30,968 nucleotides of DNA, taken from the IMG/VR virus record IMGVR_UViG_3300033996_001294, positions 1 through 30,968 of that record; one strand, written 5' to 3'. The notes under the pieces were generated by a model. The model was not told where the DNA came from. It did not search any database and worked only from the letters and a program-made list of their open reading frames with translations. Source of the stretch: a virus. The position numbers and the translations under genes were made by a program. Below, piece after piece: positions 3,244-11,394 of the stretch (position 1 is its first letter; each line of letters opens with the position of its first letter).

Positions 3244-5076
3244 TATGTCGTTGTAGCTATCATCAAGCTGCACATACTGTGTTTCTTTGGTGTTACTAAT
3301 AGCAGGCGTTGGGTGATAGGTAAACGTGCGTGGGTTAATCGCAGACTTACGGAAGGCTAGTGATGTAGCATCGGGATAGTCGTCGTGTCCACCACTAGGG
3401 TTGAGCGACAATAGCTGCGTTATCATCTTCATGACAGGTTCATGGCATCGTGTATCGTAGAGTATAGCCTCATACTGTGCAAACACAGGCTCCATGTCAG
3501 CTTTGATACGGTCAATCTTACGATCACGGTTGACGATACTGTATATGGGTGTGTTAAGAGTTTTTTCTGCTTCCCGTCTTACATTCTCTTGAGTTGCGTT
3601 ACACTCGATATACATCTTATCGATTGGGATTATCTGACTAATGCGTACCATTTGATCGACAATGCCAGGTCGTACAAAGCGTGGGTTACGTGAGTCTTCA
3701 TAGATACCCCAACCACGTCCACCTTCGAGGTGTAAGATAATTGGGAATGTTTTTTCAATTAGCTTATCACTACCTGTCTTCTGTCCTATTGCATTTACGT
3801 AAGCAGTAACAGCAATAACAGAATCATCGGCGGTAGATTTCTCTGATGAAGCTACGTCAACGACCATAGTCGGGTCGGCGATAGCCTTATACAATACGTC
3901 GTTATATGTGAAGGTCAGTAGTCCGGCAGCGTCATAGCCAAAGTCAACAGCCTTAAGTTTATTACGATCAAACTTAGCTTCTTCAGGTGCTTCTGATATG
4001 TTGAGATACTCTTGGTAAAAGTATTTGATGTTGCCCTGTTCCCATTCACGTTTGTACAGTGATAGGATGTAGTGCAACGTATGCTTCTGAGGCCATGACA
4101 TCGTGGTCAATGTAGCTTGTATCTCTTTGCACTTTTCCTTGCTGGGTATGTGTACCTTACCATGCTTGAGCTCGCAGTGTTTATCGAGTACATCACGCAG
4201 TTCTTCAAGGCCAATGATAGGTTTATTTAATCCAAACCATTGGTCACTACCTTGTATCTGCTGTGCAACCGTATCAGGGTGTACGATAGTGCCTAGAAAA
4301 AATAGCTTGCCTTTTTCATTGTCCAGCGAATTTGATAGCTCGGCGAAGAACCACCTATTAAGATCTTTAAGTCGAGCTTCCGTCTTCGTATTGTTACGAG
4401 AGTACATGTCATCGACAAACGCAAGATGCGGACGTTTACCGAAAAAGTTCGTTCCACGTATTTGCTGGCCTGCTCCTTTGCCGACCACCATCGTACCGTC
4501 ATTAGTCCGAAAAGCATTCTTCCTCCAAATCTTAGTCCCCCTAACTGTGTCTTCATCTTCTTCTTGCTCAATGATTTGTGGATCTTTATTGCCAAAGAAC
4601 TTACGTAGTCCTTTGTGTGTGTCGATGTTGTCTTTGATGTTTGTTACAAAGTACTCTGACTGTGTAGCAGTCTCGGACAAAATGAGGATAACAGGCTCGT
4701 TGATAGGCGGTAGCTTCACTATATCATAGTCATGTCTATCAGATCCTTCCCACCCTTCTGCTTCGTACCTTACATATGGTGAGTAACCTTTAAGCCATAT
4801 GAAATAGTTGGGAAAACCAAATGATGACAACGTAGTCTTAGCTGCTTCACGGTGAATGATGAAGTAACCCTGACGTTCAACACGAGACTCTTTGTTAGGA
4901 CGGAACATCTCAAACAGAATCTTAGTCATGTCAAAGTGATGTGCTGCCCAATCTTTATTGTAGTAGTCAGGAAACCAATGCTTAAGAAAAGCAAGTAGTC
5001 CCTGCTTATCAGCAGTCTTATGGGTGTGGGTATTGTCAAGCCATGAAGCTAGCAATGCCTGGCGATTTTGTTCCAT
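3208..5076 (-). CDS. terL: Terminase large subunit (ATPase-nuclease packaging motor)
   Basis: A 622-residue protein with both terminase domains. ATPase: an atypical Walker A HREAAKTT at 75-82, Walker B LAFVDDM at 218-224 and a coupling motif FLGTIVHPDT near 260-269. RNase H-like nuclease: Asp407 in VVDVASSEKSTADDS, Glu491 in MYIECNATQ, and the Asp cluster HDDYPDA at 564-570. It cuts concatemers and pumps DNA into the prohead through the portal. It starts at ATG 5076 overlapping the previous stop as TGATG, so it is translationally coupled to the 144-residue gene. Its 3' end overlaps the convergent small terminase gene. Portal and capsid genes are 7 kb away on the other strand, an unusual separation. 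Confidence 0.95.
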   Translation of the reverse strand: MEQNRQALLASWLDNTHTHKTADKQGLLAFLKHWFPDYYNKDWAAHHFDMTKILFEMFRPNKESRVERQGYFIIHREAAKTTLSSFGFPNYFIWLKGYSPYVRYEAEGWEGSDRHDYDIVKLPPINEPVILILSETATQSEYFVTNIKDNIDTHKGLRKFFGNKDPQIIEQEEDEDTVRGTKIWRKNAFRTNDGTMVVGKGAGQQIRGTNFFGKRPHLAFVDDMYSRNNTKTEARLKDLNRWFFAELSNSLDNEKGKLFFLGTIVHPDTVAQQIQGSDQWFGLNKPIIGLEELRDVLDKHCELKHGKVHIPSKEKCKEIQATLTTMSWPQKHTLHYILSLYKREWEQGNIKYFYQEYLNISEAPEEAKFDRNKLKAVDFGYDAAGLLTFTYNDVLYKAIADPTMVVDVASSEKSTADDSVIAVTAYVNAIGQKTGSDKLIEKTFPIILHLEGGRGWGIYEDSRNPRFVRPGIVDQMVRISQIIPIDKMYIECNATQENVRREAEKTLNTPIYSIVNRDRKIDRIKADMEPVFAQYEAILYDTRCHEPVMKMITQLLSLNPSGGHDDYPDATSLAFRKSAINPRTFTYHPTPAISNTKETQYVQLDDSYNDISRFGASAWELF

Positions 5077-5510
5077 CAGTTGAGGGATTGTTCAGGGAAG
5101 TTAGTAGTAGGTGTTTCAACGCTTACGCTCGCCATGTCTTTTAGATCGTCGAGCATCTGATCTTCAAGATCGTTGAGCTGATTCATAACAGCATTAACGC
5201 TGTCGTTAATACCAATAGGGATTTGCATTGGTGTTGATGGCGATATGTTTAGTTGGAGCGTATGACCATGTAAGCTACATAGCATGTGAGCAGTACACTT
5301 ACCGATGGTGTAGGGGGATATGGTTGTGTCGATAGGATCTAGAATTACATTAGACTCGAACGTGTATTGTTTATCGCCAATGATTACGGGCAATATCTTT
5401 ACGCGCATATATGAATCGCCTATGTTAAATGTTTCAGGTAGCTCAGGAATGTCTGTGTAAATGGAGGCATTATTCTGCCCAACATAGTAGACGAAAGTAG
5501 GATCTGGCAT
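5076..5510 (-). CDS. Hypothetical protein coupled to TerL, 144 aa
   Basis: The protein begins MPDPTFVYYVGQNNASIY and looks beta-rich over its first 115 residues, then ends in a helix (VNAVMNQLNDLEDQMLDDLKDM) and a Ser/Thr-rich tail. That layout suits a small virion or assembly protein, but I recognise no family. Its stop overlaps the TerL start (TGATG), so the two are expected to be made together. No clear Shine-Dalgarno site precedes the ATG at 5510, which is unusual here. About 107 bases separate it from the upstream terminator-bearing gene, so it should have its own promoter in 5511-5588. Confidence 0.6.
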   Translation of the reverse strand: MPDPTFVYYVGQNNASIYTDIPELPETFNIGDSYMRVKILPVIIGDKQYTFESNVILDPIDTTISPYTIGKCTAHMLCSLHGHTLQLNISPSTPMQIPIGINDSVNAVMNQLNDLEDQMLDDLKDMASVSVETPTTNFPEQSLN

Positions 5511-5588
5511 TTGTCACGCAATGTATATGGGGAAAGGGTTGAGTTAAGCGTCGAGCTACAACACACAACTTACAAGGATCTGCGGTTC
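5511..5588 (-). promoter_or_regulatory. Presumed promoter region for the TerL operon
   Basis: A gene-free stretch between the terminator of the 156-residue gene and the start of the TerL operon. Because the terminator should stop upstream transcription, a promoter is expected here. On the minus strand I see TATACAT about 10 bases before the ATG and a TTAACT farther upstream, with poor spacing for a sigma-70 promoter. The six-copy motif found elsewhere is absent, which would fit a different timing class (late) for this operon. This is inference only. Confidence 0.3.
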
Positions 5589-5612
5589 AAAAAAAACCGC
5601 CCGAAGGCGGTT
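5589..5612 (-). terminator. Rho-independent terminator
   Basis: On the minus strand a 7-bp GC-rich stem AACCGCC/GGCGGTT (5595-5601 with 5606-5612) with a TTCG tetraloop is followed directly by eight T. It lies five bases past the stop codon of the 156-residue gene, so it ends that transcription unit. This is the cleanest intrinsic terminator in the window; the UUCG-type loop is a very stable one. Confidence 0.95.
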
Positions 5613-5617
5613 GTTGG

Positions 5618-6088
5618 TTACGCTGTGACGGCCTGCTGTGCGTACACGCTGTCAACGTCGAACTTGTAGACAGTGCCGACTGGCTCACACCGAATCATGA
5701 CGGTTGACGCAGGGATGCGCTTGTCGTCAGGCTTGGCCTGCGGACGGTAGAAGAACACGCGGAGTTGAGTGGTTGGTGTACCATCTTCGGCAAGGTGGAA
5801 CGGCACAGTAACTGGAGAGAACAGTTTTGGTCTGCCGTTTTCGTCTTGCGCACCGTGTGCAAAGAGGAACGTCGTGAGCGCATACTGAACAACAACACGC
5901 TCTTCGACGAACTTGATGTCGCTGGTGTCGAGATTGAGAACACCGACGAACATACCGTCGCTTGTTTCGCGAGCTTTGGCAGTACGATACTGCAATTCAC
6001 GCGCAATGATAGCATCGACAGATTCGCCGAATGCTGGTGAGAAAGCTGCCGTCTTGGCAACGTTGCTGATATTGATGTTTGCACTCAT
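5618..6088 (-). CDS. Strongly translated 156-aa protein of unknown function
   Basis: The start at 6088 (MSANINISNVAKTAAFSP) is chosen over one 14 codons upstream because TAGGAGG lies seven bases before it. The protein is soluble with no signal or membrane segment, and contains TTFLFAHGAQDENGRP and a beta-rich C-terminus (TQLRVFFYRPQAKPDDKRIP). It looks to be a single-gene transcription unit: copy C of the repeated motif, a long hairpin and an AT-rich leader lie upstream, and a strong terminator follows. That arrangement, plus the ideal ribosome site, suggests an abundant early protein, for example a single-stranded DNA-binding protein or host-takeover protein. I cannot assign either from the sequence. 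Confidence 0.75.
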   Translation of the reverse strand: MSANINISNVAKTAAFSPAFGESVDAIIARELQYRTAKARETSDGMFVGVLNLDTSDIKFVEERVVVQYALTTFLFAHGAQDENGRPKLFSPVTVPFHLAEDGTPTTQLRVFFYRPQAKPDDKRIPASTVMIRCEPVGTVYKFDVDSVYAQQAVTA

Positions 6089-6117
6089 GGCAAACCTCCT
6101 AAAAGAAAATGAAAAAA

Positions 6118-6140
6118 TGCACACGGACACTCCGTATGCA
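6118..6140 (-). promoter_or_regulatory. Leader hairpin with T-run before the 156-aa gene
   Basis: On the minus strand, two 10-base arms (6131-6140 and 6118-6127) pair fully, with one G-T wobble, around a GTG loop; the core is ACGGA-GTG-TCCGT. Six T follow immediately (6112-6117), then an AT-rich spacer and TAGGAGG. It starts about three bases after motif copy C, so it would form at the very 5' end of an RNA begun there. It could stabilise the message, act as an attenuator, or terminate read-through from the upstream small-gene block. Confidence 0.6.
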
Positions 6141-6160
6141 GGGCGTAATATATTATGCCC
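6141..6160. promoter_or_regulatory. Repeated intergenic motif, copy C (near-palindrome)
   Basis: GGGCGTAATATATTATGCCC is a 20-base palindrome with a single mismatched pair. It contains the shared core GCGTAATATATT (6143-6154), 54 bases upstream of the 156-residue gene's ATG. It falls between two minus-strand genes. Promoter or operator function is inferred from the six-copy pattern. Confidence 0.55.
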
Positions 6161-6202
6161 ACAACGGCGCAGAACATAGTCTACGCCGTAATTGGCACAA
6201 CG

Positions 6203-6583
6203 TTAGAATGGAAAGTCAGCAGGGTGTACTGCGTATTGTGGTTCGCGAACACGACCTGTTGTTTGAGCGAGAACACCGTATAGGGAGTTGTTACGTACCT
6301 CACATTCCTTGACAAAGTCAAGTAGCAAGGCGACACGGTTGTGTAGCAGACGCTTGACAGGTGATTTGCTGTGGCGGTCGATGTCAAGGTCGAGAAGAGC
6401 GAGCATGTACTTTGCAACATTGAGGTCGTGAACGATAGCGTCGATTTGACCTATGTCGTAGAGGCTATCGCTGTTAGCATAGTCGTCGATTTTGGCATCG
6501 TTGAACATGATAATGTCGTTGAGTTCTTCGAGACGTGCGATTACTTCGCTCCATGTTGGGGCTTGGTTGATGAGGCGTGGCAT
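6203..6583 (-). CDS. Hypothetical protein, 126 aa
   Basis: The start is ATG 6583 (MPRLINQAPTWSEVIARLEE) with ACGGAG upstream, the leader shared by neighbouring small genes. An upstream in-frame start at 6637 would overlap the preceding mini-gene and lacks a ribosome site. The product looks all-helical and acidic over residues 10-95, with a basic C-terminal third (SPVKRLLHNRVALLLDFVKE). No membrane segment or known motif. It is the last gene of the small-gene block before motif copy C. Function unknown. Confidence 0.6.
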   Translation of the reverse strand: MPRLINQAPTWSEVIARLEELNDIIMFNDAKIDDYANSDSLYDIGQIDAIVHDLNVAKYMLALLDLDIDRHSKSPVKRLLHNRVALLLDFVKECEVRNNSLYGVLAQTTGRVREPQYAVHPADFPF

Positions 6584-6606
6584 GATTGACTCCGTTGTAT
6601 TGGTTG

Positions 6607-6732
6607 TTATGAACGTTGTTGATTGAAAGGAACACACTCGACAATAATGTCGATTTTGTCAGAACCTGGGTATGTACCAGTACGTCGGATGTCGTATTGG
6701 TACAAGCTGATAGCAAGCAATATGGCAAGCAT
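6607..6732 (-). CDS. Mini-protein, 41 aa, possible membrane anchor
   Basis: The frame begins MLAILLAISLYQYDIRRTG, a short hydrophobic stretch followed by a charged tail. The ATG at 6732 is one base after the TAA of the upstream mini-gene (TAATATG), so it would be translated by re-initiation; its own ribosome site is poor. The same frame stays open upstream to 6849 but that part overlaps the 42-residue gene. It may be a membrane-anchored small regulator or a membrane-active peptide. The call rests on context and the absence of any stop, not on homology. Confidence 0.4.
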   Translation of the reverse strand: MLAILLAISLYQYDIRRTGTYPGSDKIDIIVECVPFNQQRS

Positions 6733-6733
6733 A

Positions 6734-6862
6734 TTACACCAACCTTTCTGTGAGTAGGAAGATTGCGAATTTGATTGTACGGCGAATGATGTCGCCAATG
6801 ACAATTGAATACAGTACAACAAGAGCGATGTTGCAAGCGATGATAACATGGTCGAGGTTCAT
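6734..6862 (-). CDS. Mini-protein, 42 aa, predicted single-span membrane peptide
   Basis: The 42-codon frame begins MNLDHVIIACNIALVVLYS and is dominated by one hydrophobic segment (about residues 5-26), then IRRTIKFAIFLLTERLV, a basic amphipathic tail. It is supported by the exact leader ACGGAGTCTGCC before its ATG, the same 12 bases that precede the gene starting at 7619. It sits between two genes with the same leader and so fills what would otherwise be a gap. The next mini-gene begins one base after its stop. A role in the membrane is inferred; no family is recognised. Confidence 0.6.
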   Translation of the reverse strand: MNLDHVIIACNIALVVLYSIVIGDIIRRTIKFAIFLLTERLV

Positions 6863-6876
6863 GGCAGACTCCGTGG

Positions 6877-7296
6877 TTATTGGTGTGGGAAACGATAGCA
6901 ATCTTCGTCGATTTCGTCATCGGCATGCCAGTTGTCGTTGTCACGACAATCGTCAGGGTCTGGAATGTCGTCTGTTTCATCGCCGACAAGAGCAACAAGC
7001 TCGTGTGGGAATTCGAGCAACAGTAGGCTGTGTATGAATGAGTGCATATACTCACATTCATTCATTTCTGCTGTTAGCAATGCTTCGTTGTACGGTTGGT
7101 GTTCGCTGATGTGGTTGCGAATACGTACGGCACGAAGTATGCAGTCAGTTGCGTAGTCCCACAGTTTGTCGGCAAGTGGAAGCCGTGTGTGAAACGGCAG
7201 TTGGTCGTATGGCTGAGGGACAGTTGCAAGTATGTCGTGGTAGTCAGACCATACCTCGATTGGAAGACGAGCGATAAGAAAAATGAGCGGTTTCAT
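6877..7296 (-). CDS. Hypothetical protein with acidic tail, 139 aa
   Basis: The protein begins MKPLIFLIARLPIEVWSDY and ends in a strongly acidic, Asp-rich tail (about residues 105-137, with DDIPDPDDCRDNDNWHADDE). Highly acidic tails occur in phage DNA mimics and host-protein inhibitors, but nothing here proves that role. The start at 7296 has CACGGAG upstream, the shared leader type. The N-terminus is hydrophobic for only about ten residues and lacks a clear cleavage site, so I do not call a signal peptide. It sits in the middle of the block of six small unknown genes. Confidence 0.6.
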   Translation of the reverse strand: MKPLIFLIARLPIEVWSDYHDILATVPQPYDQLPFHTRLPLADKLWDYATDCILRAVRIRNHISEHQPYNEALLTAEMNECEYMHSFIHSLLLLEFPHELVALVGDETDDIPDPDDCRDNDNWHADDEIDEDCYRFPHQ

Positions 7297-7310
7297 TGTG
7301 TTCTCCGTGG

Positions 7311-7619
7311 TTAAAGTAGTGGAAGTTCGTTTTGAATAGCACGGTCAATAGCGTCAGCCCATGTACGCAGTTCGGCAAGAATAGCAGGGAGGTGAGCGGA
7401 TTTGAGTGGCTCACGTTCTTGGTATTCAAGTACGTACGGTGCGACGTCAACGATATGTTGGCCTGCTAGAGTAAGAGCGTCATAGCATGCAAGTGGGATT
7501 GCAAGTGTGCGCTCAGAGTTAATTAGACCTTGTGCGTCTGACAGGAATGTATGAATATCGTCGAATGAGCTGACGATATGATGATACATTGCACGAGTTA
7601 CGGCAGGGTTGTATGGCAT
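7311..7619 (-). CDS. Hypothetical protein, 102 aa
   Basis: A helical soluble protein beginning MPYNPAVTRAMYHHIVSSFD, with leucine/alanine-rich helices through to ALPILL-like ends (AILAELRTWADAIDRAIQNE). The start at 7619 is fixed by the leader ACGGAGTCTGCC, identical over 12 bases to that of the mini-gene at 6862. Copy F of the repeated motif lies 66 bases upstream of the ATG, in the gap after the 70-residue gene, so this gene may begin a transcript of its own. No family recognised. Confidence 0.6.
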   Translation of the reverse strand: MPYNPAVTRAMYHHIVSSFDDIHTFLSDAQGLINSERTLAIPLACYDALTLAGQHIVDVAPYVLEYQEREPLKSAHLPAILAELRTWADAIDRAIQNELPLL

Positions 7620-7706: not shown

Positions 7707-7919
7707 TTAGCATCCAATCATTTCCCACCAGTCGTGGTCAGTTGGGATTTCGTATTCCTGTTGGTCACGCTCTATCTCGATTTGTACTTCGAGGTATGCG
7801 ATTTCATCGATGAGAGCATCGAAGATGCTGTGGAATTGAGCACCATCGCTGAGTCCCATCTTGTGTTCAATCTCAGCTTGGTCGAGAGCTATGTAAAGCT
7901 CGGATAGTTCGTAACGCAT
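7707..7919 (-). CDS. Hypothetical acidic protein, 70 aa
   Basis: A short, acidic, helical protein starting MRYELSELYIALDQAEIEHK; the pattern suggests a coiled coil through residue 55, then a Trp-Trp-containing tail. The ATG at 7919 has AAAGGG upstream. It is the first gene of the small-gene block, with motif copies D and E 52 and 160 bases upstream, so it should be the first gene on that transcript. Function unknown. Confidence 0.55.
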   Translation of the reverse strand: MRYELSELYIALDQAEIEHKMGLSDGAQFHSIFDALIDEIAYLEVQIEIERDQQEYEIPTDHDWWEMIGC

Positions 7920-7953
7920 GGCAGTACCCTTTCGGTAAGGTTGTGAGATGTCC

Positions 7954-7968
7954 GCTAGAGTTTCTAGC
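7954..7968. repeat. Inverted repeat between motif D and the 7919 start
   Basis: GCTAGA-GTT-TCTAGC is a perfect 6-bp inverted repeat with a 3-base spacer. It lies three bases downstream (minus strand) of motif copy D, the same relative place as the hairpin next to copy C. It could be an operator at the transcription start or a 5' RNA stem-loop. Confidence 0.45.
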
Positions 7969-7971
7969 AGG

Positions 7972-7983
7972 CAGTAATATATC
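7972..7983. promoter_or_regulatory. Repeated intergenic motif, copy D
   Basis: CAGTAATATATC matches the shared core except that A replaces C in the CGT part. It is preceded by CAGG like copies A and C. It lies 52 bases upstream of the first small gene of the block (start 7919). Promoter or operator role inferred. Confidence 0.45.
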
Positions 7984-8026
7984 TAGGTGATTGTGTCTAA
8001 CACGTCAGGTTACAAGCCCATTGTGT

Positions 8027-8072
8027 CGAGCCTACGCTGACGCTTGGACGAGCACTACATATGGTAGGCTCG
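8027..8072. repeat. Long-loop inverted repeat, 9-bp arms
   Basis: CGAGCCTAC (8027-8035) and GTAGGCTCG (8064-8072) are perfect reverse complements around a 28-base spacer. In RNA from either strand this could fold; as DNA it could bind a protein at two half sites. It lies between motif copies D and E. Confidence 0.5.
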
Positions 8073-8079
8073 TTGTAGA

Positions 8080-8105
8080 GCGTAATATATCCTGTGCATG
8101 CAGGA
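8080..8105. promoter_or_regulatory. Repeated intergenic motif, copy E, with overlapping inverted repeat
   Basis: GCGTAATATATC (8080-8091) is followed without a gap by TCCTGTGCATGCAGGA (8090-8105), a 5-bp inverted repeat around TGCATG. The overlap of motif and repeat resembles a promoter under operator control. It is the copy closest to the helicase-side terminator and 160 bases upstream of the 7919 start. Confidence 0.5.
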
Positions 8106-8120
8106 CGTTTTTTCGGAGAC

Positions 8121-8152
8121 GGGGGGAGGGGGGGAAGCCCACCGGGGGGAGG
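8121..8152 (+). other. G-tract cluster, possible G-quadruplex
   Basis: The plus strand has a run of six G (8121-8126), seven G (8128-8134), six G (8144-8149) and then GG. The first two runs are split by a single A. Since each long run can supply two G-triplets, a G-quadruplex is possible on the plus strand, with a matching C-rich minus strand. Nothing else in the window has such G-runs except the shorter tracts at 8457-8476. Confidence 0.6.
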
Positions 8153-8246
8153 TTGTTGGAAGAAGTCAGCCCAGGGATGGGGAAGCTTCACGCATATTTT
8201 CTACCAAAAATCTGTGCAGGGATCTAGCGTTATCTCGTATGCCTAG

Positions 8247-8270
8247 CATTTTGTTGACGTTAACAAAATG
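8247..8270. repeat. Perfect inverted repeat, 9-bp arms
   Basis: CATTTTGTT (8247-8255) and AACAAAATG (8262-8270) flank GACGTT. It borders an AT-rich stretch of about 150 bases. No T-run follows on either strand, so it is more likely a protein-binding site or origin element than a terminator. Confidence 0.55.
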
Positions 8271-8420
8271 ATCTGTGGCCTATTATATTATGTTATAGTT
8301 ATTATAGTTTCTTTTTTTTACCTGTTCTTTTGCCCCCTGTTCGGTGTAAACCTAAGAAATAATCACTATACGTGTCAAGTAAAAATATTGGTCTTTTCTT
8401 TACATGTCGCAATAACGTGT

Positions 8421-8451
8421 AAAAAAAAACCCTACCTTTTGACAGGTAGGG
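8421..8451 (-). terminator. Rho-independent terminator after the helicase operon
   Basis: On the minus strand an 8-bp stem CCCTACCT/AGGTAGGG (8430-8437 with 8444-8451) and 6-base loop are followed by nine T (8421-8429). It lies about 60 bases past the helicase stop and should end the replication/recombination transcript before the small-gene block begins. Confidence 0.92.
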
Positions 8452-8485
8452 CTCGAGGGGGAAGAAATGGAGGGGGTGTCAATGC

Positions 8486-8510
8486 GAACACCTCTGCAAT
8501 ATAGGTGTTC
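8486..8510 (-). repeat. Hairpin directly after the helicase stop
   Basis: GAACACCT (8486-8493) and AGGTGTTC (8503-8510) are perfect 8-bp arms around a 9-base loop, three bases past the helicase stop codon. No T-run follows, so on its own it is not an intrinsic terminator. It may protect the 3' end of the message or work with the terminator 35 bases further on. Confidence 0.6.
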
Positions 8511-8512
8511 TA

Positions 8513-9862
8513 TCAGTTAAATGCAACTTCTACCTGCTCTAACCAGCTTGGGTTATTTTCAGGTCTACGTTCACTGACTAGCGTCAGATCTCCAACAAAA
8601 TCAAGGATTACTGACCCAGGTATACCATTACGCACTTTAGCTGCAATAACTTCCATACGGTTCTTGGCTACTGTAATACCGTCTTCAAACGTATGAAGGT
8701 TGTAATACTCTGGGCGGTACGACATAAGTACAATGTCTGCTTCTTGCTCTATTGAGCCTGACTCACGTAGATCTGACAGCATAGGCCGTTTATCTGCGCG
8801 TAACTCTACATTACGGTTGAGCTGTACTAACGAAACGATTGTGATGTTGAACTCTTTGGCTAGTGCTTTAAGACCTTGTACAATGATAGATACTTCCTGC
8901 TCACGGCTATTAGCCTTTTCAGGGCGTATCTTGCCTAGGTGGTCGATAAACACGACCTGTATTTTGTGTTTGAGTACCATCTGCCGTGTTATCATCCGTA
9001 TCTCGGCAAGAGTATGATATGGATCTGTGTCAACCCACATCGGGAGACTTTTAAGCTCGTTGACAGCAGTCTGTATCGTCTGTACCTGTGTATCGTCGAA
9101 TAGCTTGCCAGACTCAAGATGGCTAACGCTGATGTTGGAGCATTGGCTGATGTAGCGTGACCATAGCTGTTTTCTACCCATGTCAAGCGAGAAGCATAAA
9201 CTTGGTATGCTACGCAGAGCCAGATCACGCTGCGCCGTTACCATCAACGCCGTTTTACCCATCGCAGGACGTCCTGCCATAAGTACCAGCTCCTCTGGGC
9301 GATAGCCGCCAATGAGTTTGTCAAGGCTAGGCCAAGCAGTGCCGAGGCAATCATGGCTAACTGGATTAAGTATCTTATGTTCAATTTCATCTAACTCTGC
9401 CTCTTTGTTAAGATGCGAATGTTGTGCGTCCGCGACGACATCAAGAACTGACTGGTCGATTTTAGCGACAATATCCTTGATATTGGTTTTACCCTGGTTT
9501 AATTCGTCCATAGCGCGCACTAAAGCGTTGCTAGTTATCCGCCGTTGATGCAGATTCCGCAGAATCTTGAGATGCCGATCAGTCGCAGTCGTCGGGCAGT
9601 TAGCTACGACCTTAGCCACATTGCCTGCACCGCCTACAAGGTCAATCAAACCTTCACGCTGCAAAGCTCCTGTGACTGTCACAAGATCAATAGGTACGCC
9701 TGCAAGCCATTCTTTGAACGCTACTGACCAGATTGTCCGTAGATATTGCAGGGTAAAATGCTCTGCTTTGACGATGGTAGGGTCAAAGGCATTAGGGTTG
9801 GTGAGGAACGATCCGACAATTAGACACTCTAATTCGGTGTCGATCCATTCTGTTTGCTCCAT
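8513..9862 (-). CDS. dnaB: DnaB-type replicative helicase
   Basis: A 449-residue protein of normal DnaB length. Residues 1-100 match the helical N-terminal domain (ILLGS-like LIVGSFLTNPNAFD). The RecA-like motor has Walker A GRPAMGKT at 197-204, Walker B VVFIDH near 303-308, SLVQLNR at 344-350, DLRESGSIEQEADIV at 364-378 and an arginine-finger-like KVRNGIPG at 409-416. It would unwind DNA at the fork as a hexamer. Walker B reads FIDHLG where most family members have IDYLQ. No primase, loader or polymerase is in the window, so those come from elsewhere in the genome or the host. The start overlaps the nuclease gene by 34 bases; GGGAAG lies upstream. A terminator follows. Confidence 0.95.
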   Translation of the reverse strand: MEQTEWIDTELECLIVGSFLTNPNAFDPTIVKAEHFTLQYLRTIWSVAFKEWLAGVPIDLVTVTGALQREGLIDLVGGAGNVAKVVANCPTTATDRHLKILRNLHQRRITSNALVRAMDELNQGKTNIKDIVAKIDQSVLDVVADAQHSHLNKEAELDEIEHKILNPVSHDCLGTAWPSLDKLIGGYRPEELVLMAGRPAMGKTALMVTAQRDLALRSIPSLCFSLDMGRKQLWSRYISQCSNISVSHLESGKLFDDTQVQTIQTAVNELKSLPMWVDTDPYHTLAEIRMITRQMVLKHKIQVVFIDHLGKIRPEKANSREQEVSIIVQGLKALAKEFNITIVSLVQLNRNVELRADKRPMLSDLRESGSIEQEADIVLMSYRPEYYNLHTFEDGITVAKNRMEVIAAKVRNGIPGSVILDFVGDLTLVSERRPENNPSWLEQVEVAFN

Positions 9863-10200
9863 TGGTACGCTTCCCGTATTTGGTTGATAGTTTCGTTACT
9901 CGTCATTTGCTGTGGTGTGTAATACAGCAGTCGCCATCCGTTGCAGGCAGCTATGTTAGCTTTGGTATATCCTGATAATATACCGTAGATGCTACCGTGC
10001 GCACCGCGTGTATAAACACCGCCTTGTATTTCGATGCCTAGCTTGATGTCAGGCCAAGCGTAATCGATGCGAAAGCGTCGTTTATCTACCATTTTGACTT
10101 CAATCTGTGGCTCTGGCATGCCAGCTTCTTTGATAAGAAGTAAAAACAGTTTTTCGTTACGCTTCGTAGCGTTAGTGCGTAGGTTTTCTTTGCCTGCCAT
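9829..10200 (-). CDS. Small PD-(D/E)XK / VSR-like endonuclease, possible resolvase
   Basis: A 123-residue protein. The core RFRIDYAWPDIKLGIEIQGG (about 42-61) gives Asp46, Glu57 and a Gln in place of the usual Lys, as in VSR/DUF559-like endonuclease folds. The following YTKANIAACNGWRLLYYTP is typical of the family's last helix and strand. Such small phage enzymes often resolve branched DNA or repair mismatches. It sits between the Gp157-like gene and the helicase in a recombination/replication operon, which supports a role in processing phage DNA intermediates. No clear Shine-Dalgarno site precedes the ATG at 10200; a hairpin lies upstream. The exact substrate is unknown. Confidence 0.7.
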   Translation of the reverse strand: MAGKENLRTNATKRNEKLFLLLIKEAGMPEPQIEVKMVDKRRFRIDYAWPDIKLGIEIQGGVYTRGAHGSIYGILSGYTKANIAACNGWRLLYYTPQQMTSNETINQIREAYQWSKQNGSTPN

Positions 10201-10249: not shown

Positions 10250-10873
10250 TTACGCTGAAGCATCTTCGCATTTTTTGATGGTTATACCTTGATCGCGTAT
10301 GAGGCGGAAACCTTTTGATTCTGCCCATTCGTGCGATAGATCGCCTGCTGCCAAACCAGCTTTAATATTGGCTATATCCCATTCAAATTTACGCTTGACA
10401 CATCCTTCGCCCCATTTGTCGTAGTCCGCTTCGGAAGGTTCGACGTCAGTTTTGAGTGTTCCGGGCTTGAGCTTGGTACGCACCTCATACCCCGACGCTG
10501 TAACCATCTGATTACAATCTAATTCATTTAACGCAATTATTAGTTCCTGTTCAATACGTTGCGTTAAATATTTGTTGGCATCGACAGCCTCCTTTGCCTG
10601 ACGCGCAGCAGCGTCGAGGCTTAGTCTGCGCTCCTGCAACGTCTCGCGAGCTTGCAGTAACAAGTTAATCGCTTTGTCTTTGACGGTCTTTGTGTCGCCC
10701 GATGCAAAGAGGCATGACAGCGTTTGCGACATTTCATGAGCGATATAGGACGCCTGCAATGTGTCTTTGAATACTTGACACAAATCGTCTATGTTCTTCT
10801 TGTCATAATCAAACATATCGTGGTTCGTGACATGATAAAACCACGCTGGTACGGCTGGGCTGGTCTGTGGCAT
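10250..10873 (-). CDS. Gp157-like (PF05565-type) coiled-coil protein
   Basis: A 207-residue protein with a long helical/coiled-coil part (about 40-125, with ARETLQERRLSLDAAARQAK) and a C-terminal part where a strand (YEVRTKLKPGTLKTD) is followed by a basic helix and a final GFRLIRDQGITIKK. That order resembles siphophage Gp157-family proteins, which often sit beside ERF or Rad52-like annealing genes; their biochemical role is unclear. The ATG at 10873 is chosen because GGAGG precedes it; a TTG four codons earlier overlaps that ribosome site. It begins as TAATG on the stop of the upstream gene. Confidence in the family is moderate. Confidence 0.55.
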   Translation of the reverse strand: MPQTSPAVPAWFYHVTNHDMFDYDKKNIDDLCQVFKDTLQASYIAHEMSQTLSCLFASGDTKTVKDKAINLLLQARETLQERRLSLDAAARQAKEAVDANKYLTQRIEQELIIALNELDCNQMVTASGYEVRTKLKPGTLKTDVEPSEADYDKWGEGCVKRKFEWDIANIKAGLAAGDLSHEWAESKGFRLIRDQGITIKKCEDASA

Positions 10874-11394
10874 TAGATCCTCCAAAAGAATTTAGTGAGT
10901 TTGTTGTAGTAATCAGTTGCTTGGTGCATTAGCTTGTTGTGCCAGTAACCTTCTTGGTCGCTGTACCAATCCAGCCCATTCTGCCTGGCGATCTCTGGCA
11001 AAGTAGCCGCATTGAATTGGACGGTGTATGTGTCTACGTCGGTTACTTCTTCAGGGATTTCTTCGAACATCGGCAGAGAAATTCTGCCGTGTTCAGCATC
11101 GCTGATTTTCATATTAGGTGTTAGCGTCATATCCCTAATGACAAGATCACCATCATTGCCAATCTCATGCTCAACAGTATTGTTTAGCATGTTATGTAGC
11201 AGTACATACAGCGTAAAGATCTGCATTTCGTTTGGGCGATAGCTTTTGCCATGTGTTTGAAACAGATGAGCACCAATGATAGCTGCGGGCGGGAACTGCC
11301 CATACAGAATATCATAGTTGCCGTAAATGTCGATGTAAAAGCAATCCAAAAAACTTTCTGCGCTTTGTTGCCAGGTTATTGTGTCTGAACTCAT
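10873..11394 (-). CDS. Hypothetical protein in recombination operon, 173 aa
   Basis: A soluble protein beginning MSSDTITWQQSAESFLDCFY. It has a helical middle (QIFTLYVLLHNMLNNTV), an acidic central region and a Trp/Tyr-rich C-terminus. No family is recognised. It lies one base after the ERF gene's stop (TAATATG) and overlaps the Gp157-like start (TAATG), so it is made with both. Coupling suggests a function in recombination or in protecting phage DNA, but this is context only. Confidence 0.6.
   Translation of the reverse strand: MSSDTITWQQSAESFLDCFYIDIYGNYDILYGQFPPAAIIGAHLFQTHGKSYRPNEMQIFTLYVLLHNMLNNTVEHEIGNDGDLVIRDMTLTPNMKISDAEHGRISLPMFEEIPEEVTDVDTYTVQFNAATLPEIARQNGLDWYSDQEGYWHNKLMHQATDYYNKLTKFFWRI

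Follow-up and report, generated by a model that had tools for sequence, protein, structure and literature searches.

Introduction

The origin of lactococcal phage c2 is non-coding and driven by an early promoter, and its transcript is not translated. In mitochondria, the light-strand promoter lies upstream of a G/C-tract doublet, conserved sequence block (CSB) II, and the transcript is G-rich. The phage T4 origins oriF (ori uvsY) and oriG (ori 34) are described as consisting minimally of a promoter and, behind it, an A+T-rich unwinding element (PMC3016281). In the same account, the transcript forms an R-loop within the unwinding element and very likely primes leading-strand synthesis, heterologous unwinding elements function, and oriE, oriF and oriG are located near strand switches of transcription (PMC3016281). 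This report concerns a non-coding gap at positions 7920-8512 of the virus record IMGVR_UViG_3300033996_001294, a sequence of 30,968 bases that reads as a tailed-phage genome or fragment and is called the window below. The gap follows the gene for a DnaB-like replicative helicase (8513-9862, minus strand), the last gene of a leftward replication operon. On its sequence, it is predicted to be a module of terminator, promoter and leader. Tentatively, and with a little less than even confidence, we read this module as most likely doubling as a transcription-primed replication origin. Its likeness to the c2 origin, by description only, lies in the non-coding, promoter-driven layout.

The gap is the best origin candidate in the contig because it is the longest gap, holds the least stable DNA and adjoins the DnaB gene. 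Between the 41 genes picked from the list of open reading frames (ORFs), it is the longest non-coding stretch, at 593 bp, the next being 107 bp. An initial annotation of the window had pointed to repeats, motif copies, G-runs, an AT-rich stretch and a terminator packed beside the helicase gene, and had taken them for features of an origin, with regulation alone as another possible explanation. These features are present and exceed chance. Both ideas survive, and the gap stands as the contig's best candidate, while most of the inverted repeats that were stressed are confined to the lineage of the window. That annotation did not name what is more telling, namely the AT-rich element of conserved composition that directly follows the promoter. 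For many uncultivated phages, the origin is difficult to locate in the absence of a recognised initiator or iterons, which is the situation here.

A conserved promoter-like block behind the helicase operon

The helicase and the terminase served as queries against viral contigs, which yielded a small family of relatives. Five family stretches were compared, namely the window and those labelled L011, L091, L007 and L004; L011 and L004 form one lineage, hence four lineages, and the L011 and L091 stretches are parts of longer contigs. Helicases of the four lineages are 69-100% identical. Identity to the window's helicase is 74% in L004 and L005, 69% in L007, 75% in L013/L091 and 79% in L006, a contig that stops inside the gene. 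One further contig, L002, is identical to the window over its whole 8.5 kb, and L003 is a near relative.

The ERF-to-helicase gene set runs leftward and ends at 8513 in the ORF list. An intrinsic terminator, a GC-rich 11-pair stem followed by a U-run in the transcript, lies directly after the helicase gene end (8427-8454, minus strand). On visual inspection, L004, L005, L007 and L091 likewise have a hairpin and T-run behind the helicase, in partly different letters. Beyond the terminator lies a conserved promoter-like block on the same strand, made up of a -35 hexamer TTGACA (8373-8378, minus strand) and a -10 hexamer TAGGTT (8349-8354, minus strand; TATGTT in L091) with an 18-nt spacer. Thus the initial annotation was right that the region separates two leftward transcription units, a terminator being followed by a leftward promoter-like block. 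TTGAC is invariant in all five aligned rows, and the consensus of the four lineages is TTGACN-N18-TANGTT, leftward. The block reads TTGACNCRTATAG...TANGTT, with 24 bases between the -35 start and the -10 start. It is followed by a conserved, putatively initially transcribed sequence with G clusters, GAACAGGGG...ACAGG (8318-8342, minus strand), found by alignment. Counted from the -35 start, GAACAGGGG is found at +36, and a further ACAGG follows at +52 to +54.

The promoter block is present in all six contigs that extend past the helicase, with one copy per stretch, the window included. Scanning the viral collection for the exact pattern recovered it in five contigs, and a narrower pattern recovered it in four; both miss L003 through one differing base. 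The genome contigs gave no match to the pattern outside the family. Ungapped identity among the four lineages is 0.65-0.85 in the promoter block vs 0.18-0.64 just upstream. In L091, a deoxycytidylate deaminase-like gene (PF00383; L091:3761-4183) in the opposite direction lies between the helicase terminator and the promoter; terminator and promoter are therefore separable.

An AT-rich element conserved in composition

The predicted promoter stands directly upstream of an AT-rich element, as at T4 oriF and oriG. Positions 8246-8430 are 70% AT vs 56% in the contig overall, and 8261-8320, at 80% AT, are the contig maximum in 60-base windows. By nearest-neighbour stability, the least stable 60 bp of the contig are at 8260-8320 (both strands), a candidate DNA unwinding element. 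In five of the five family stretches, the stability minimum at both window sizes, 60 bp and 100 bp, is located on or next to the AT element, with z from 3.0 to 5.4 for the 60-bp minimum; the window's 100-bp minimum leads the next site by a small margin (-115.9 vs -118.4). The 60-bp AT maximum begins at +46 to +58 from the -35 start, and the offsets of the layout elements from the -35 are nearly fixed across lineages. Ungapped identity of the element among the four lineages is 0.25-0.48, at an AT content of 0.74-0.81. The AT element is thus kept in AT-richness and position, not in letters. Such conservation of stability without sequence is what would be predicted of an unwinding element, and in all five stretches the element appears to lie right after the probable start site. 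The likeness to T4 oriF and oriG extends to an unwinding element that is interchangeable in T4 and unconserved in letters here, and to the presence of a phage replicative helicase, as far as the T4 account describes these origins (PMC3016281). The helicase of the window is recognised as DnaB_C (PF03796, E 2.3e-74; phrog_19, E 1.8e-88). The terminator sequence, the promoter-like block, and an AT element and C-tract kept in position and composition are observed features of the locus.

Stretches with distant helicases (30-40% identity) served as a control. Among the best 80 of 197 loci, 73 such stretches were taken, of which five were dropped for a short flank. Within 900 nt 3' of the helicase, the 68 remaining controls have the stability minimum in 15 cases, the G4Hunter maximum in three and both in one (L080). 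In the family, with L002 replacing the window, both fall within this distance in 5/5. The comparison of 5/5 with 1/68 is an illustration, not a probability: the 900-nt limit was chosen with the family in view (L091 lies at 792), and many control stretches are near duplicates, so that rows are not independent.

The C-tract and possible transcription control

Further downstream on the transcribed strand lies a cluster of C-tracts (8121-8149, minus strand), a rut-like bubble in which C exceeds G and a G-quadruplex-like motif of the template strand. The G-tracts on the plus strand, which the initial annotation listed, lie on the template strand of the conserved promoter. The runs G6 at 8121, G7 at 8128 and G6 at 8144 are the sole G/C runs of at least six in the 30,968 bases. 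Measured from the -35 start, the C-run cluster lies at about +202 to +260 and a single C4-C5 run at +180 to +196 in four of five rows; across the four lineages, the densest C-tract of the transcribed strand starts about 200-230 bp from the -35. The C-tract holds the G4Hunter maximum in 5/5 stretches, the lead over a coding stretch in L091 being narrow (2.20 vs 2.16). As a sequence pattern, four G-runs of at least three with loops of 1-7 are present in L011, L091, L007 and L004, and in the window only with loops up to 12. The window shares a G/C-tract doublet (G6AG7) with mitochondrial CSB II, but the conserved promoter here would yield a C-rich transcript. A CSB II-like G-rich primer RNA was rejected: it is the C-rich strand that the conserved promoter would transcribe, and the scan listed no promoter pointing right within 7920-8121.

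These tracts would fit a module that controls transcription and does nothing else, an explanation we consider quite plausible at somewhat below even odds. A terminator, a strong promoter and a long untranslated leader would stand at the boundary of two leftward gene sets. The C-rich, G-poor tract would be a Rho utilization (RUT) site or a template-strand G-quadruplex roadblock, attenuating the downstream genes until phage expression changes, and the AT-rich stretch would be an unstructured leader. The 78-nt bubble with the largest excess of C over G on the transcribed strand, scored without regard to C spacing, falls on the C-tract in four of the five family stretches and is tied for first in the fifth, L091. 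A 78-nt region of C over G belongs to the signature used in a published RUT-site search, as that search describes it (PMC6407284). The locus shares this region within an untranslated leader with Rho-dependent leader attenuators of that description; here the Cs sit in homopolymer runs. The 3' untranslated end of the helicase operon carries another C-rich tract (8455-8482, minus strand; sequence and G4Hunter), and similar tracts precede the terminator in L004, L005/L011, L007 and L091, ranking second by G4Hunter in the window, L011, L004 and L007 and third in L091. This ties such tracts to transcript ends. The downstream genes, moreover, change between lineages while the promoter stays.

Regulation alone would account for the terminator, the promoter and the C-tract. 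The AT element is the odd part, for transcription control alone leaves the position of the least stable DNA, directly after the start site, unexplained. Also weighing against this explanation, RNA folding z-scores of the leader are -1.4 in the window, 0.1 in L091, -3.8 in L007 and -2.4 in L004, and the covariation term of the RNAalifold consensus fold is unfavourable (+2.16). A conserved RNA fold of the leader is not supported by these two results. Between the two, a transcription-primed origin that is also the promoter of the second leftward operon is given a slight edge over a leader of purely regulatory function with a Rho-type C-rich site. Should the module turn out to serve regulation and nothing else, a conserved leader of attenuator-like type would remain, in a phage group without a close annotated match.

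Counted from GAACAGG to the first ATG that follows, the untranslated leader measures 423 nt in the window, 432 in L004, 359 in L007 and 314 in L091. It contains a motif TAGRAAATRTG (8193-8203, minus strand) that is present in all four lineages at +144 to +175 from the -35 start. By eye, no ORF appears conserved in the leader, including after the TAGRAAATATG motif. This would suit a third explanation, which we think improbable, namely that the locus encodes a small non-coding phage RNA, some 200-250 nt long, whose end would lie close to the C-tract. Its 5' G clusters would pair with the 3' C-tract, or its C-rich loops with G-rich ribosome-binding sites. RNAalifold does pair the 5' GGGG and GGG with C-runs, with unchanged pairs in 4/4 of the first helix and 2/3 of the second across five sequences, and three of the 31 predicted pairs, elsewhere in the fold, show a two-sided change in some sequence. 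The G-to-C-run pairs themselves never vary on both sides and are hence without covariation; the overall covariation term is unfavourable. Rfam gave no match at gathering score in the window and only sub-threshold matches within the region (E 0.63 or worse), and the transcribed strand of the window has no listed terminator-like site past the C-tract.

A possible transcription-primed origin

We infer promoter activity, a start site, an R-loop, priming, helicase loading and a boundary role for the C-tract from this arrangement. Under a transcription-primed origin, transcription of the helicase operon would end at 8427-8454, and a host-type RNA polymerase would start leftward at about 8342 from the conserved promoter at 8349-8378. 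The nascent RNA, with its G-clustered 5' end, would re-anneal behind the polymerase as the AT element at 8260-8320 melts, giving an R-loop. The 3' end of the R-loop RNA may then prime leftward leading-strand synthesis, while the displaced strand may receive the phage DnaB helicase. The C-tract at 8121-8149, G-rich in the template, could form the downstream boundary, either as a pause site for the polymerase or through recruitment of Rho, and only a fraction of the transcripts would then continue into the genes from 7919 to the terminase. More generally, the locus might represent a compact phage origin that lacks an initiator, although we hold this broader idea to be rather doubtful. In such an origin, the promoter and G-clustered start would be fixed in sequence, the unwinding element and C-tract boundary would be compositional and set at a fixed distance, and the module would balance replication priming against expression of the genes up to the terminase. 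Metagenomic phages could be scanned for this order of a conserved promoter, the least stable DNA and a C-tract.

The energetics of R-loops were computed with a simple superhelical model in the style of that described in PMC6442632, built on dinucleotide values. The leader ranks first in L091 with both parameter sets and first in L011 and L004 with one. It is within about the top 5% of positions in L007, and at about the top 5% or better in four of the five family stretches.

Several results weigh against an origin of this kind. The window is the exception in the R-loop model, since 25% or 13% of its positions outscore the leader, and in the relatives the spots that the model favours are some 90-200 nt downstream of the start and for the most part beyond the AT element. 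The -10 agrees with the E. coli consensus at three of six positions, and a consensus promoter scan did not list the conserved leftward promoter. The shape of this -10 might hint at an actinobacterial host. GC skew, which the initial annotation had proposed as a check, does change near the region with a sign that goes the wrong way: in the helicase direction it passes from about zero or positive to negative in the window and L091, opposite to an origin. Transcription keeps its strand here, both flanking gene sets running leftward, unlike at the three T4 origins near strand switches, and the likeness to these is at the level of sequence. T4 also differs in its MotA middle promoters and in having its own primase, polymerase and RNase H, whereas here the promoter is sigma70-like, DnaB is the only such protein recognised and a C-tract follows. 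Within 7920-8512 there are neither iterons nor tandem repeats. DnaA boxes (TTATNCACA) are represented by one single-mismatch site in the window and by none in L004, L007 and L091. No initiator or primase was recognised in the 30 of 41 picked genes that were scanned; several proteins of the replication operon are without a family. Finally, an origin and a mere promoter have most of the evidence in common.

Repeats in the gap and their conservation

Perfect inverted repeats with arms of at least eight and loops of 3 to 40 number four in 7920-8512, at 8027/8064, 8247/8262, 8430 (the terminator stem) and 8486/8503. The initial annotation had counted five; four strong ones stand, and an additional hairpin at 8090-8105 is weaker, with six pairs. 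In 100 dinucleotide shuffles, the mean was 0.27 (standard deviation 0.58) and none reached four. When the contig was divided into 52 consecutive windows of 593 bases, two of which overlap the gap, the average was 0.48 and the largest count three. Such an excess over chance would favour an initiator-dependent origin of the DnaA or iteron type, or a packaging site at the repeats, which we nonetheless judge very improbable, as the repeats are mostly lineage-specific, iterons are lacking, the single DnaA-box match is weak and no initiator was recognised in the genes scanned. The direct repeats of the gap are pairs of 10-16 nt and are not conserved. The repeated motifs of the region are GTAATATATC at 7974 and 8082 and CGGGGGGAGG at 8120 and 8143.

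The palindrome CATTTTGTT-N6-AACAAAATG (8247-8270, both strands) was not observed at the corresponding position of the alignment in L004, L005, L007 and L091. A 9-bp inverted repeat with a 28-nt loop in the distal leader (8027-8072, both strands) is shared without change by L089, which in this region is a relative from the lineage of the window. Both of these, and the letters of G6AG7, are confined to that lineage. Most individual repeats of the gap were not seen in distant relatives, and the promoter block and compositional layout are the conserved part. Conservation in relatives, which the initial annotation had made a test of its idea, therefore gave a split answer: the region is conserved and its repeats largely are not.

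Probable sequence exchange near the leader

Between the window and L003, one of 477 positions differs in the gap (8036-8512) vs 32 of 1350 in dnaB; the sole difference, at 8355, falls just outside the -10 hexamer. Upstream of a diverged 70-amino-acid ORF, L089 matches the window without a difference for about 215 nt (window 7911-8120 vs L089:1-240). Ultra-conservation of the leader was dropped as evidence. Because L089 is also identical to the window across about 1 kb of the terminase stretch, mosaic recombination is a simpler reading than constraint. The leader is thus identical or nearly so while adjacent genes diverge, for the window vs L089 and the window vs L003, and a recombination junction probably lies near the leader. 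Across the lineages, the genes downstream vary while the promoter persists.

Genomic context and further observations

The second leftward ORF set begins at 7919 and continues through the terminase. Its first ORF (7707-7919, minus strand; 70 amino acids) has a 66% identical counterpart in L089 and had no match in family searches. The contig also encodes a P22-like portal (PF16510, E 4.9e-49), a terminase large subunit (phrog_38 match), an ERF annealing protein and a RadC-like protein. A 123-amino-acid protein (9829-10200) matches phrog_503, a family of unknown function, and by eye resembles a PD-(D/E)XK resolvase-like nuclease. A 211-amino-acid protein (10250-10885) resembles a Gp157-like coiled coil, again by eye. 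Neither has a Pfam or NCBIfam match of note. At 5076-7619, leftward genes have a C-rich coding strand (plus-strand skew 0.08 to 0.29), unlike the helicase operon.

By sequence comparison, the phage group appears to be without a close match in the annotated phage collection. The helicase query gave 31-33% identity in the best 20 of 1,255 records, all records being below 60%; the terminase query gave about 22% in the best 12 of 60 records, and the portal query gave no match there. A terminase search of the genome collection gave a single 27% match, to a WOR-3 metagenome-assembled genome, too remote for naming a host. A Staphylococcus phage blastn match (E 0.06, to a record without annotation) and a plasmid match (E 0.7) were taken as chance.

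In a group of GC-rich phages (18 loci, e.g. L036:1976, L037:1577 and L050:2579; helicase about 30-33% identical), a conserved intergenic G7-8-A/C-G5 tract is followed by a C5-7 run. It lies upstream of a gene start in the copies examined, and TATAAT occurs about 50 bases before it in the printed flank of 10 of the 18 loci. This element was taken as unrelated to the C-tract of the window, as its gene-order position differs and its G-tract has the other orientation. In an alignment made for this comparison, the fifth row, L077, does not align. The L036 copy had no match in annotated phages, and the element may be an RNA or DNA structure of its own.

A further motif, CGTGGTTTAACTACG (with variants having TATC), recurs on the coding strand in the relatives, several times before gene starts. 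In the window it has 3-mismatch matches only. Its sites are L011:7125, 11509, 11570 and 12058; L004:2961, 3022 and 3510; L091:4556, 5014 and 8751; L090:64 and 3801; and L088:458 and 4360. The motif is possibly a promoter or a leader hairpin.
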